A DNA stretch of 64,000 bases. Origin: Candidatus Loosdrechtia aerotolerans (GTDB lineage Bacteria; Planctomycetota; Brocadiia; Brocadiales; Brocadiaceae). The DNA lies in NCBI GenBank assembly GCA_021646405.1, contig SOER01000009.1, positions 1 to 64,000 of the forward strand, in the 5' to 3' direction. The notes under the pieces are model-generated. The model saw nothing but the letters and a program-made list of their open reading frames with translations, was not told the origin of the DNA and did not search any database. Made by a program: the position numbers and the translations under genes. Below, in pieces: positions 56,665-62,999 of this stretch. The number at the start of each line of letters is the position of its first letter. Position 1 is the first letter of the stretch.

Positions 56665-57732
56665 TTACTCCCCTATGAGAATGACCTCTTCTGTCTCATT
56701 TTTACTGAGAGCATACCTGTAATCCTTGCGTTTTATCTCATGTATCTTCCGTTTGTATTTACCAAGCACTCCTGCAAGTTCTTCTATCGAAGGAATTCCA
56801 TCGGAACGATAAGAAATAATTAGGATACTGTCCTGAAATCTCTCACATAGTTTGTCGAACGCAGAATAGATCTTATTCTTATCAGTCCAAACCGATGTTT
56901 TTGTTTTCAGTCTTTTATGCTTTGATCGATAATCAATCCTGTGAGGCCAGGTCTCGTAATTCACAAGCCCTTCTAGAAAATGATAGAAACCAAGATAATC
57001 AACCCCAACCCCTTTCCGGGAGATATATGGTGTGTCTATGTATACAAGGTCAAAATCCCCCTTCAAATCAAAGATATCAAGGTTTACCGCCTGATTCCTC
57101 TGTTTATTGGAAAAAACAGCGTTATTAGCCTCCCTGGCATATCGTCTAAAGTGAACGTCAAAAGACGTATCCCAGGTTACCTTATTCCCGAAATCCCGCC
57201 TGATATCAGCGAATCTCAGATAAAGGTTTTTTCTGTGAAACAGATTAAACGGTCTTTTTGCAATACAGGCCTGAAACAGGGCAAAATACGCCAGAGCCTG
57301 CTTATAGGCATTATCAAGCAACTGAATATTTGCCACAACCATATCAATCCATCTATTCTCTTCTTCTATATAATAGATACCCTTAAAAGTTTCTGTTATA
57401 AAAGTAGGATAGATTATTCCAGGGTGTCTTGAAAGAAGAAAATTTACATCCATGCCTGAAAGGGTAACAGAATCATTCTCTATTAATGCACTACCGATAT
57501 AATAATTGAATTTTAAAATATCATTATACGTAACAGTTTTACCCTTCTTTTTAAGAAAGTACGCCACGCTTCCCGTACCACCAAAGGCATCCAGGACTGT
57601 CTGGAATTTGAATCCCTGTATTCCTTCCCATATCCAATCAACAATTTTAAGCTTACTGCCCCGAAATCGTGTCGAAGGAAATCTTACATATTCTTCAAGT
57701 AAAATCCGTTGTTCCTTAAAGTGTCCTATCAA
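56665..57732 (-). CDS. Solitary D12-class DNA adenine methyltransferase
   Basis: A protein of 355 residues. It opens FPSTRFRGSKLKIVDWIWEG, as D12 enzymes do, then the SAM site VLDAFGGTGSVAYFLKKKGK and the catalytic box VYIDTPYISRKG (D-T-P-Y, where Dam has DPPY). No restriction endonuclease or regulator gene is adjacent. It may be an orphan regulator-type methylase or half of a lost R-M system. The start codon is TTG with no clear ribosome site. It is convergent with ribF. Confidence 0.88.
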   Translation of the reverse strand: MIGHFKEQRILLEEYVRFPSTRFRGSKLKIVDWIWEGIQGFKFQTVLDAFGGTGSVAYFLKKKGKTVTYNDILKFNYYIGSALIENDSVTLSGMDVNFLLSRHPGIIYPTFITETFKGIYYIEEENRWIDMVVANIQLLDNAYKQALAYFALFQACIAKRPFNLFHRKNLYLRFADIRRDFGNKVTWDTSFDVHFRRYAREANNAVFSNKQRNQAVNLDIFDLKGDFDLVYIDTPYISRKGVGVDYLGFYHFLEGLVNYETWPHRIDYRSKHKRLKTKTSVWTDKNKIYSAFDKLCERFQDSILIISYRSDGIPSIEELAGVLGKYKRKIHEIKRKDYRYALSKNETEEVILIGE

Positions 57733-57781: not shown

Positions 57782-59122
57782 TTACTCCTGTCCATCAGGT
57801 TTTGTTACTATACCTTCAGACCAGTTAATGATAGCACCAATATCCACCGGTTCTCCGCCTATGGACATCTTATGCTGTCGTCCTTCTAATAGTTTTTTCT
57901 CTTCGCCCTCTATCAATAATACCGCATCACCTTTTACGGCTGTCGCAATGGTAACAAAGTCCTCCGCCTGGATATTCAAGTCACCCTTACTTGTCCGTAT
58001 TTGTCCATTAGGGGTATTAATCTCTAAAGGAACGTCCGATTCTTTTATAGAGACAAAGACCTGACCAGTTTTAAGATAGATTCTCAATGGATCGATAAAG
58101 CAGACCTCCGTATTTACATCTATTTTTACAACAATACCCTTTTTCGTAGTTAAGGCAATCCTTCCTTTATCCCCTGTTTTCAAATCAGCACCAGTCCGAA
58201 AATGGGCACGATCTGATAGCTTTTCCCATGTACCACCCGGATATAAATACTGAACATCTCCGGAATAATTTACGATATCGATCCCCCGGCCTTTGTGTGT
58301 CAGATAAAAATACGTGCCGGCTAATGCAAGTATCCCACAACCTACAACAGTTCCCAAGAAAATGAATCCCTTTTTAGTTGGCCGTGAAATAAGTATTCCT
58401 AATTCATAGAGAATAATCATAGGAACAGCGGTCATGGATTGGGTGAATGGATCCGGAGGGGTAACAACAGCAGCAATAATAAATATTACTAGAATGGCAT
58501 ACTTTCTCCATGATCTGAATTTTTCAGAAGAAACAATACCAATCTTCGATAAGAGCAGCATAACAAGGGGTAATTGAAATACCAATCCCAGTGCAACCGT
58601 TAACATAAAAACAAACGAAATATACTGCTGCATGGTAATAATTGGCTGGATCCCCGGACCAAGGATACCAATTAAGAATTGCAGGCCGAAAGGGATTAAT
58701 AAAAAGTATCCGAAGACCCCTCCTATCAGAAAAGCCAGGTATGATATCGGAAGGAACAGAAGTGCATATCTTTTCTCTTTTTGATACAATCCAGCGCTTA
58801 CAAATTGCCATATCTGGTAAATGATAAATGGATATGCCATAAAAACCGATGTAATAAAGCATAATTTCATATATGCATAGAAACCTTCCTGATAACTGAG
58901 CACCTGCAACTCTGTTGGGAGACCTAATTTTCCCATGGTATGTCCATGAGGTTTTTTGGCAATTTCCAGGATTTGCTCTTTAAAAAACCAGCAGAATATA
59001 AAACAGAGAACAATGGCGATAACGGAGAAAACAACCTTCCGTCGCAGTTCTTCAAGATGAGCACCTAAGGTCATCCTTATCTTTTCAATTTCATTCGTCT
59101 CTTCTGTCTCTCTCTCTTCCAC
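57782..59122 (-). CDS. tatC: Twin-arginine translocase TatC fused to a FecR-like domain
   Basis: A protein of 446 residues, while normal TatC has about 250. Residues 15-248 are TatC, with six membrane helices, the substrate-binding start TLGAHLEELRRKVVFSVIAI, the conserved Glu in SYQEGFYAYMK, FGYFLLIPFGLQFLIG and VVTPPDPFTQSMTAVPM. A seventh helix at about 252-274 (FIFLGTVVGCGILALAGTYF) leads to a periplasmic beta-rich domain at 285-435. It reads NYSGDVQYLYPGGTWEKLSD, RTGADLKTGDKGRIALTTKK and the like, matching the FecR pattern. The extra domain might sense or dock exported substrates. It starts at GTG. No tatA/B gene is adjacent. Confidence 0.92.
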   Translation of the reverse strand: MEERETEETNEIEKIRMTLGAHLEELRRKVVFSVIAIVLCFIFCWFFKEQILEIAKKPHGHTMGKLGLPTELQVLSYQEGFYAYMKLCFITSVFMAYPFIIYQIWQFVSAGLYQKEKRYALLFLPISYLAFLIGGVFGYFLLIPFGLQFLIGILGPGIQPIITMQQYISFVFMLTVALGLVFQLPLVMLLLSKIGIVSSEKFRSWRKYAILVIFIIAAVVTPPDPFTQSMTAVPMIILYELGILISRPTKKGFIFLGTVVGCGILALAGTYFYLTHKGRGIDIVNYSGDVQYLYPGGTWEKLSDRAHFRTGADLKTGDKGRIALTTKKGIVVKIDVNTEVCFIDPLRIYLKTGQVFVSIKESDVPLEINTPNGQIRTSKGDLNIQAEDFVTIATAVKGDAVLLIEGEEKKLLEGRQHKMSIGGEPVDIGAIINWSEGIVTKPDGQE

Positions 59123-59432: not shown

Positions 59433-59927
59433 ATGGGTAATGAATTCCAGGGAAGTTTAATTGGCACGGGAAAGATATTTGGAATTGTTGTTAGCCGGTT
59501 TAATAATTTTATAACAAAGCGTTTATTGGACGGTGCATATGACAGTCTTGTCAGACATGGTGTAAAGGAAGAGGACATCGATATTTTCTGGGTGCCTGGT
59601 TCCTATGAAATACCTGCTGCTGCCCTTAAGGTTGCGCAGAGTGGTAAATACAGTTCTGTAATCTGTTTAGGAGCTGTAATCCGCGGTGAAACACCCCATT
59701 TTGACTATGTTGCGAGTGAATCAGCAAAGGGCATTGCACAGATTGGTTTGTCGACAGGTATTCCAATCATTTATGGAGTTATCACTACGGAAACATTGGA
59801 ACAAGCTATCGATCGTGCAGGTGCTAAAACTGGAAATAAAGGAGCAGAAGCTGCATTATCAGCTATAGAAATGATAAATCTTTTCGACCAGATACAGGCC
59901 AATATCCCATTAACCAAAAAATACTGA
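59433..59927 (+). CDS. ribH: 6,7-dimethyl-8-ribityllumazine synthase
   Basis: Penultimate step of riboflavin synthesis. It shows the family blocks [60 protein letters not shown] and [27 protein letters not shown]. It has 164 residues, usual for the capsid-forming type. It is followed by nusB, the common ribH-nusB order. Confidence 0.97.
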
Positions 59928-60048: not shown

Positions 60049-61332
60049 ATGCGTAACAGAACAGTTGCTCGAGAACTTACCCTTCAAGCCCTTTACCAAC
60101 TTGATCTCTGCGGTGATGAGATATTGAATGAGATTGATGAGTTTTGTAAAAAAAATACCGAGAAACAAGATGTATACAAGTTTGCCATATCACTTATTCA
60201 TGGTTGCCGGTCTCACCTTAAAGAAATAGACGAAAAGATATCGAGTGTTACAGAGCATTGGGAATTGCATCGCATGGCAATCATAGATAAAAATATTCTC
60301 CGTCTGGGAGTCTACGAGTTGTTATACAGAGAAGACATCCCGCCAAAGGTTTCAATTAACGAGGCTATTGAGCTTGCAAAAAAATTCAGCACGAAAAACT
60401 CCGGGACTTTTGTAAACGGGATTTTGGACAAGATTTATACTCAATTTGGGAACGGAAAGCTGGAAGATAACAGGTATGGTTCTCTTCTCCAAAATATACC
60501 GGAAATTAATTATGGGAATTCGGACCTCCATGTCCACACCAACAATTCCGATGGTACTTTCACAGCGGAGGAAGTTGTTGATGAGGCAATTCGATCCGGT
60601 GTTTCGGCGATTTCCATCACTGATCATGATACCACGAGAGGCGTTGATATTGCCTGCCGTTATGCACAGGATAAAAATATCCATATTATTCCTGGTATAG
60701 AAATCTCTTCATATCTCAGCCCCTCTGAAATTCATATCCTTGGTTATTTTATCGACATCCATAATGCCTATTTACAAAAAATGTTAAAACAGGCCTACGA
60801 GGACCGGGTAAAACGCATCCATCTTATGGTTGAAAAATTGCACGATCTCAATGTCAATATTAATCCTGATGAAATTTTTGCACTAGCAGGAAAAGGTTCT
60901 CCCGGGAGAATGCATGTTGCAGAAATAATATGGAGGCACGGCTATTGTAGCACGATCGTAGAGGCTTTCTTTAAATACATAGGGGATAACGGGCCTGCAT
61001 ATGTTCCTAAAAAGACGTTAACTCCAAAACAGGCTATAGAATTAATCAAACAAGCGAGAGGGGCAGCAGTTCTCGCCCACCCCGGACTGTCTAAGAGAAA
61101 TCATATTATTGAAACCCTGGTAAAAGATGGCCTGCAAGGAATAGAGGTATACTACCCATTACATTCACCCGGAGATATTAAAAAATACCTTAAGATTGCA
61201 GAAAAGTATGATTTAGCCGTTACAGGCGGTTCCGATTTCCATGGGGAAAGAAAAATAGATACCCCCATTGCTAAAGCTACCATACCCGGAGACCTCGTTC
61301 ACAAGCTTAAACAAAAATGTCTATCCCAATAG
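60049..61332 (+). CDS. nusB: NusB antitermination domain fused to a PHP phosphoesterase
   Basis: A protein of 427 residues. Residues 1-140 are a complete NusB: RNRTVARELTLQALYQLDLC, ILRLGVYELLYREDIPPKVS INEAIELAKKFSTKNSGTFV NGILDKI. Residues 155-425 are a PHP hydrolase with its metal motifs: SDLHVHTNNSDGTF (HxH), ISITDHDT, GIEISS, AAVLAHPG and TGGSDFHGE. PHP proteins of this type (RNase AM/YciV-like) cut 3'-phosphates from 5' ends or 3',5'-bisphosphates. The fusion links rRNA antitermination with an RNA- or nucleotide-processing enzyme; the functional link is inference. There is no frame break between the two. Confidence 0.93.
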   Translation: MRNRTVARELTLQALYQLDLCGDEILNEIDEFCKKNTEKQDVYKFAISLIHGCRSHLKEIDEKISSVTEHWELHRMAIIDKNILRLGVYELLYREDIPPKVSINEAIELAKKFSTKNSGTFVNGILDKIYTQFGNGKLEDNRYGSLLQNIPEINYGNSDLHVHTNNSDGTFTAEEVVDEAIRSGVSAISITDHDTTRGVDIACRYAQDKNIHIIPGIEISSYLSPSEIHILGYFIDIHNAYLQKMLKQAYEDRVKRIHLMVEKLHDLNVNINPDEIFALAGKGSPGRMHVAEIIWRHGYCSTIVEAFFKYIGDNGPAYVPKKTLTPKQAIELIKQARGAAVLAHPGLSKRNHIIETLVKDGLQGIEVYYPLHSPGDIKKYLKIAEKYDLAVTGGSDFHGERKIDTPIAKATIPGDLVHKLKQKCLSQ

Positions 61333-61535: not shown

Positions 61536-62999
61536 ATGGTTAATAGGAAAAAAGAAATACAAGAAACTGAAAAAACAAAGAAAAAGCAGAGAGGTTTCTG
61601 GTCCCGGTTTTGGTATCGGTTGAAGAACTTTACGGTAGAGCCGCGGAAAACCGTAATCTTTGAAGGTACTACGGTAAGGCTGGTCCCGATGCCACCGGAG
61701 CTTCCGTTTGAAGAAACCTCTGAGGACCAAATTTTAATTTCACAGGAAACCGTTGCTGTTGAAGCAGATACAGAAAGAATAATTCCGCCCTCAATAGGAA
61801 CTGCCGTTATCGAAGACGATAGAGAGGAGAACATCCCGTCGTCATTTGAGACTCCTGTTCTTGAAGTTGAAACTGAAAGGGTCGTTTTGTCTCCGGAACC
61901 GAAAGAGGTTGCCATTCTCGAGGAAGACCCACCTGTTTCGGTTGTACCGGAAACAGCCGTTGCTGAGGACAAAGAAGAACAAGTCTTATCACCATCAGAT
62001 ACTGCTGTTATGGAGGAGGAGATTGAGCTGCCCATCGGACTTCAGGAAGAAACGGCAGTTATAGAAGAAGAGATTGAAAAACCACCCATTACATCTGAGA
62101 AACTCAGAAAAGGGCTGGAAAAAACCCGTGGCCGTTTTTGGTCCCGGTTAAAAAATATCTTTTCGTTTAGAAAAAAGATCGATGAATCTATACTTGAGGA
62201 ATTGGAAGATATTCTTATTAGCGCAGATGTTGGGGTAAGGCCTGTTCAGAAACTCATGCAGGAACTTCATGAAGCATGGGAATCCCAAACAATCACCGAG
62301 ACTACGGAGGTCTATGAATTCATTAAGCAGAGAATGAAAGAAGGTCTGCAATCCTGGAAAATTGATATCAACTATGCCCCTACACCACCTACAGTTATCA
62401 TGGTTGTCGGGGTAAATGGTGTGGGAAAAACTACGTCAATAGCAAAACTTGCAAATCTCTTCATAAAAGATGGTAAAAAGGTTATGGTTGCAGCAAGCGA
62501 TACCTTTAGGGCAGCAGCAGCAGATCAGCTCGATATCTGGAGCAAACGTGTCGGGGCAGATATCGTGAAACATCAAGCAGGAGCAGACCCTGCAGCAGTA
62601 GCATACGATGCGCTTGAAGCTAGTGTTTCAAGGGGTACCGATATCCTTATCGTGGATACAGCAGGACGTCTCCATACTCATGAAAATCTGATGAATGAGC
62701 TGGGAAAGATAAAACGAGTTATCTCAAAAAGAACTTCCGGTGCCCCGCATGAAGTACTGCTGGTACTTGATGCTACAACTGGCCAAAACGCTGTCTCTCA
62801 GGCAAAGATGTTTAAAAAGGCTGTAGACATTACCGGGATATTCCTTGCAAAGATAGACGGTACTGCAAAAGGTGGCGTTGTATTGGGAATGCAGAATGAG
62901 ATAAATATTCCTGTAAAATTTATCGGGCTGGGAGAAAAGGCCGACGATATTGAAAAGTTTAACCCCCCTGCATTTGTGGAGACCTTATTTGAACAATAA
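61536..62999 (+). CDS. ftsY: Signal recognition particle receptor FtsY
   Basis: Receives ribosome-SRP complexes at the inner membrane. A basic N-terminus (KKKQRGFWSRFWYRLKNFTV) is followed by an acidic A domain of about 150 residues with repeated TAVxEE-E motifs (ETAVIEEEIEKP). The NG GTPase then has GVNGVGKTTSIAKLANLFIK, ASDTFRAAAADQLDIWSKRV, DTAGRLHTHENLMNEL, and TKIDGTAKGG-type AKIDGTAKGGVVLGM. It ends FIGLGEKADDIEKFNPPAFV. It has 487 residues. The RGFWSRF basic segment appears again (RGRFWSRLKNIFSF) just before the N domain. Confidence 0.95.
   Translation: MVNRKKEIQETEKTKKKQRGFWSRFWYRLKNFTVEPRKTVIFEGTTVRLVPMPPELPFEETSEDQILISQETVAVEADTERIIPPSIGTAVIEDDREENIPSSFETPVLEVETERVVLSPEPKEVAILEEDPPVSVVPETAVAEDKEEQVLSPSDTAVMEEEIELPIGLQEETAVIEEEIEKPPITSEKLRKGLEKTRGRFWSRLKNIFSFRKKIDESILEELEDILISADVGVRPVQKLMQELHEAWESQTITETTEVYEFIKQRMKEGLQSWKIDINYAPTPPTVIMVVGVNGVGKTTSIAKLANLFIKDGKKVMVAASDTFRAAAADQLDIWSKRVGADIVKHQAGADPAAVAYDALEASVSRGTDILIVDTAGRLHTHENLMNELGKIKRVISKRTSGAPHEVLLVLDATTGQNAVSQAKMFKKAVDITGIFLAKIDGTAKGGVVLGMQNEINIPVKFIGLGEKADDIEKFNPPAFVETLFEQ

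Follow-up and report, generated by a model that had tools for sequence, protein, structure and literature searches.

RNase AM trims the 5′ ends of 16S and 23S rRNA in Escherichia coli (PMC9848016, PMC7587437), and its action on both molecules is likewise described in a further study (PMC10250234). In the same organism, NusB/E bound to boxA is proposed to act as a tether between the leader and RNA polymerase, with a role mainly in rRNA maturation (PMC4807359). In the window analyzed here, a 64,000-nucleotide stretch of one contig of Candidatus Loosdrechtia aerotolerans, a NusB domain and a PHP phosphoesterase domain of the RNase AM/nucleoside bisphosphate phosphatase type are encoded by a single open frame that begins with ATG. 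Features of the locus are collected in Table 1. No NusB–PHP fusion is described in the papers searched, a collection with few subscription journals and without the original RNase AM paper.

Table 1. Position and supporting evidence of the nusB-php gene, its domains, and its conserved neighbors (positions within the window; aa, residues of the fusion protein)
Feature	Position	Strand	Evidence
nusB-php fusion gene	60049..61332	+	427 aa, one open frame
NusB domain, aa 7-130	60067..60438	+	PF01029 E 3.4e-36; TIGR01951 over cut-off; fold like 1tzt, 3r2c
Linker, aa 133-157, disordered	60445..60519	+	pLDDT <50 at aa 136-150; alignment; junctions
PHP phosphoesterase domain, aa 158-427, RNase AM / nucleoside bisphosphate phosphatase type	60520..61329	+	NF047791 166.9 bits, NF041577 165 bits; Foldseek 9etk
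ribH (lumazine synthase), conserved upstream neighbor	59433..59927	+	PF00885 E 1.4e-57; neighborhood table
ftsY (SRP receptor), conserved downstream neighbor	61536..62999	+	TIGR00064 over cut-off; neighborhood table

The preliminary description of this DNA had read the gene as NusB joined to a PHP phosphoesterase, with both halves complete and the catalytic motifs intact, and the domain matches within the 427-residue frame bear out that reading. The NusB half scores 141.8 bits against the NCBIfam model TIGR01951 (cut-off 88.35); residues 4–132 cover profile positions 2–130 of 131, and the domain is thus complete. The PHP half is a full domain that matches the Pfam family PF02811 (E 1.4e-12) and retains every residue of the metal site: H161, H163, D168, H193, E218, H229, H344, D396, and H398. 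None of these nine residues varies among 22 aligned fusions, nor among the 27 fused rows of a wider alignment, and the possibility that the PHP half is a pseudogene was rejected because of this invariance.

The predicted structure has a mean pLDDT of 90.1, with both halves confidently modeled, and a pTM of 0.64; it may be interpreted as a pair of domains that are joined by a flexible tether and lack a firm mutual interface. A Foldseek search with this model places Vibrio cholerae RNase AM (9etk) first, with a TM score of 0.83 on the target. On the NusB side the matches include 1tzt (TMt 0.85) and chain B of 3r2c, a NusB–NusE–boxA complex (TMt 0.89), and Thermotoga maritima NusB ranks first among the NusB structures. 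The fusion protein also matches the RsmB models of NCBIfam.

Only the linker is free to vary. It spans about 13–70 residues among relatives, its sequence is not conserved, and it accepts insertions of up to about 45 residues. In the linkers at loci L035, L036 (genomes G040 and G045), and L050 (G034) the insertions resemble translated non-coding repeats, for example SSEFRVQSADCGTNPNSEPPTPNSALL, which suggests that repeat elements may have entered the tether at these loci without breaking the frame.

Conservation of the fusion had been singled out at the outset as a point to check, and the fusion is indeed conserved: NusB and PHP share one frame in 63 of the 75 genomes of the class, that of Ca. 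Loosdrechtia aerotolerans included, down to about 40% identity. The two genes are separate in 5 of the 75, and 7 of the 75 lack an informative match, one of these being cut at a contig end. Carriers make up 31 of the 33 genomes of the same family and include members of five further families of the class. Since Candidatus Brocadia carolinensis and Candidatus Scalindua are among the named carriers, the fusion group comprises the anammox order Brocadiales and its close relatives. Because the frame is uninterrupted and of full length in 63 of the 75, the fusion cannot be put down to chance or to sequencing error, and an origin as a sequencing or assembly artifact was rejected. The preliminary description had counted as evidence against the fusion any relatives whose genes are split by a stop codon at the junction. 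Such relatives do exist, but only in other lineages (families f5, f6, and f7, and other phyla), and the fusion itself stands in 63 assembled genomes.

The fusion is present in single copy. The sole other match to the whole protein in the genome involves residues 135–197 and lies in a 587-residue frame taken, by its length and position, to be PolX. Both in this genome and across the anammox family, the fusion is the only full NusB and the only RNase AM-type PHP protein found; the other matches in the family are consistent in length and position with RsmB and PolX. A search of plasmids found no fused nusB-php copy. Three genomes of family f9 (G066, G067, and G068) carry a second, stand-alone PHP paralogue, 35–36% identical, beside the fused one.

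What might the cell gain by joining these two proteins? The best-supported explanation, to which roughly an even chance may be given, is that the fusion is the cell's NusB carrying an RNase AM-like exonuclease to pre-rRNA marked by boxA. According to this proposal, a 5′→3′ exoribonuclease would be tethered by the flexible linker to the C-terminus of NusB, and on nascent pre-rRNA the NusB half and NusE (S10) would together bind boxA, both in the leader and in the spacer between 16S and 23S. The PHP half would thereby be kept close to the 5′ end of each precursor, pre-16S and pre-23S rRNA. Cutting by RNase III or RNase E/G would leave a 5′-monophosphate end, which the PHP half could then trim to the mature end during transcription or shortly afterward. 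Three parts of this scheme are ones that we infer: that the NusB half binds boxA and NusE, that the PHP half acts on RNA and not on pAp, and that rRNA synthesis and trimming are physically coupled.

The rRNA operons of these bacteria fit such a scheme. The boxA core GTTCWTT lies 94–139 nt before 16S in 13 of 13 readable leaders, drawn from ten species of the order Brocadiales, and is the only evident conserved block in them; a second core follows 16S in 14 of 14 operons from eleven species. In a control, the core was found in about 3% of shuffled-leader trials. The operon of Ca. Loosdrechtia aerotolerans has the order 16S–tRNA-Ile–tRNA-Ala–23S–5S, and its second boxA is situated 67 nt before 23S. 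Because boxA precedes both 16S and 23S, the target of NusB sits at the sites expected for a tethered enzyme that trims 5′ ends.

The complement of other RNases resembles that of E. coli: no RNase J scores above the model cut-off in any of 14 relatives, and RNase E/G is present in 14 of 14. The apparent lack of RNase J might also mean that a general 5′→3′ exonuclease is needed, in which case the PHP half could act on other RNAs, such as the 5′ ends of tRNA or mRNA or abortive RNAs at transcription complexes, with NusB only as a general anchor to RNA or RNA polymerase. This has very little likelihood, as boxA, the known NusB target, is conserved at the rRNA operons, although rRNA targets were the only ones examined.

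For the PHP half, the RNase RNM model NF047791 gives 166.9 bits over residues 159–399, under its equivalog cut-off of 375, and the nucleoside bisphosphate phosphatase model NF041577 gives 165 bits, under its cut-off of 400; these near-equal scores, both below threshold, count against the RNase AM assignment, and the protein is not classed as a member of the RNase RNM equivalog. The PHP half might instead be a 3′,5′-nucleoside bisphosphate (pAp) phosphatase, in which case the fusion would connect rRNA transcription with the clearance of nucleotides or with a metabolic signal. Consistent with this idea are the NF041577 score itself, almost level with that for RNase RNM, and the close fold match to the Chromobacterium violaceum enzyme 2yb1, which was solved with AMP bound. 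Yet V. cholerae RNase AM ranks above 2yb1 in both Foldseek and HMMER, and the genome already encodes a CysQ that scores over its cut-off and an NrnA-like DHH protein, along with a SuhB-type inositol monophosphatase; almost all of the relatives searched also have a DHHA1 protein of NrnA size. Since CysQ and the NrnA-like protein are at hand, removal of pAp need not rely on the fused PHP domain, and the notion that it is required as the sole pAp phosphatase was rejected. A pAp phosphatase role appears improbable. Coupling of rRNA synthesis to 5′-end maturation is plausible, and fits the boxA sites, the RNase E/G found without RNase J, and the presence of other pAp phosphatases.

The genes surrounding the fusion form a wider string, ribH-nusB-php-ftsY. 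In the loci sampled, ribH directly precedes nusB in 27 of 27 fused cases and ftsY directly follows php in 26 of 27. Where only nusB is found, ftsY follows it in 9 of 15 loci, and where only php is found it still precedes ftsY in 5 of 15. Because php also adjoins ftsY without nusB, the neighborhood alone is no proof of a partnership with NusB. The php gene is part of a housekeeping string, and the fusion arose inside the old string ribH-nusB-php-ftsY.

Other genes nearby have features of their own. A gene at 57782–59122 on the reverse strand encodes TatC (residues 22–234) with a C-terminal FecR-like domain (residues 313–399, E 5.2e-5, at the gathering score). Similar C-terminal extensions occur in TatC at six Brocadiales loci (L035, L036, L051, L052, L054, and L055) and are absent from two planctomycete TatC proteins outside the class (L156 and L159). 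FtsY has an acidic-rich N-terminal region of about 200 residues with recurring TAVIEE-like motifs. Between ribF and tatC, at 56665–57732 on the reverse strand, lies a D12-class adenine-specific DNA methyltransferase gene (PF02086, E 1.3e-13) that has no NCBIfam match.

In unfused relatives nusB and php lie side by side on the same strand, with nusB first. In two families of the class, f6 and f7, the start of the PHP domain lies 17–56 bp past the nusB stop and in a different frame; in family f5, a 189-bp spacer with a stop separates the genes in genome G036, and they are on different contigs in G039. Overlapping genes, or genes within about 100 bp of each other, are seen in many phyla. In a sample of Omnitrophota drawn evenly and counted by eye, the adjacent unfused pair occurs in 27 of the 37 genomes with the PHP protein (26 of 36 when the centre genome is set aside), and the genes are apart in 10 of 37. 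The pair is also present in some Planctomycetota outside the class, some Verrucomicrobiota, Auribacter, and one member of Hydrogenedentota. One of the scans of relatives kept the best-scoring loci and is thus biased toward adjacency. An even sample of Verrucomicrobiota showed adjacency only in the centre genome, which had itself been picked for that feature.

Such proximity is what the main rival to the trimming proposal would build on. The stop codon between two coupled housekeeping genes may simply have been lost, in a neutral or expression-level fusion: each half would work alone (antitermination for NusB, exonuclease or pAp phosphatase activity for PHP), and the tether would merely set a 1:1 ratio. 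The short distances between the unfused genes, the unconserved linker with its tolerance of insertions up to about 45 residues, and the company that php keeps with ftsY away from nusB all agree with this account. The trimming proposal is likewise weakened by the five loci in which php lies beside ftsY with nusB elsewhere, and by G039 and the Omnitrophota in which the genes are apart. However, the fused state has been kept across the whole order and two further families of the class, and only the nusB junction is ever fused; a php-ftsY fusion was never seen in the neighborhood sample. In the PHP tree, the C. violaceum protein and RNase AM of V. cholerae and E. coli, on which it was rooted by choice, stand apart from the whole group, a placement that tells against the trimming proposal. 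The tree also weighs against neutral fusion in that fused rows fall in three places and the free tree needs 3 changes. A single fused clade is nevertheless not rejected by the AU test (p-AU 0.535), so that either one fusion followed by later splits or several independent fusions could have produced the pattern. On balance neutral fusion seems doubtful, though it deserves to be taken seriously.

If the tether is functional, the enzyme that completes rRNA 5′ ends would be physically linked to the Nus complex at boxA, in agreement with the view that E. coli Nus factors act mainly in rRNA maturation and not in preventing termination (PMC4807359). Anammox bacteria and their relatives might then have an antitermination complex with its own 5′ rRNA-trimming exonuclease built in and recruited by boxA, a reading that can be put forward tentatively, at somewhat less than even likelihood. 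The adjacent nusB-php pair of Omnitrophota and other phyla would be the unfused form of the arrangement, and its condensation into one gene makes the coupling of rRNA synthesis and trimming open to experiment.

Comparison with the known systems sets these likenesses in order. The N-terminal half corresponds to NusB (TIGR01951; 1tzt, 3r2c) in its full domain, its score over the cut-off, its fold, and the boxA sites in the rRNA operons, but here NusB bears a C-terminal enzyme, whereas in characterized species it stands alone. The C-terminal half shares with RNase AM (Rnm, YciV; NF047791; 9etk, 7ug9) the PHP fold, including the insertion domain, and conserves all the metal-site residues together with R253, R256, R287, and H289. 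It differs in its identity of only about 30%, its score under the equivalog cut-off, and the replacement of P/H/T by K321, and RNase AM is a stand-alone enzyme with no attached NusB. To the 3′,5′-nucleoside bisphosphate phosphatase (NF041577; C. violaceum 2yb1) the PHP half is similar in fold, metal-site residues, and near-equal HMM score, but it falls under that cut-off too, at about 28% identity, and the known phosphatase is a separate protein. A precedent for a NusB-like domain combined with an enzyme that acts on rRNA is RsmB, in which such a domain is joined to an rRNA methyltransferase. The enzyme of the present fusion is a different one, and the domain to which it is joined is the cell's genuine NusB.
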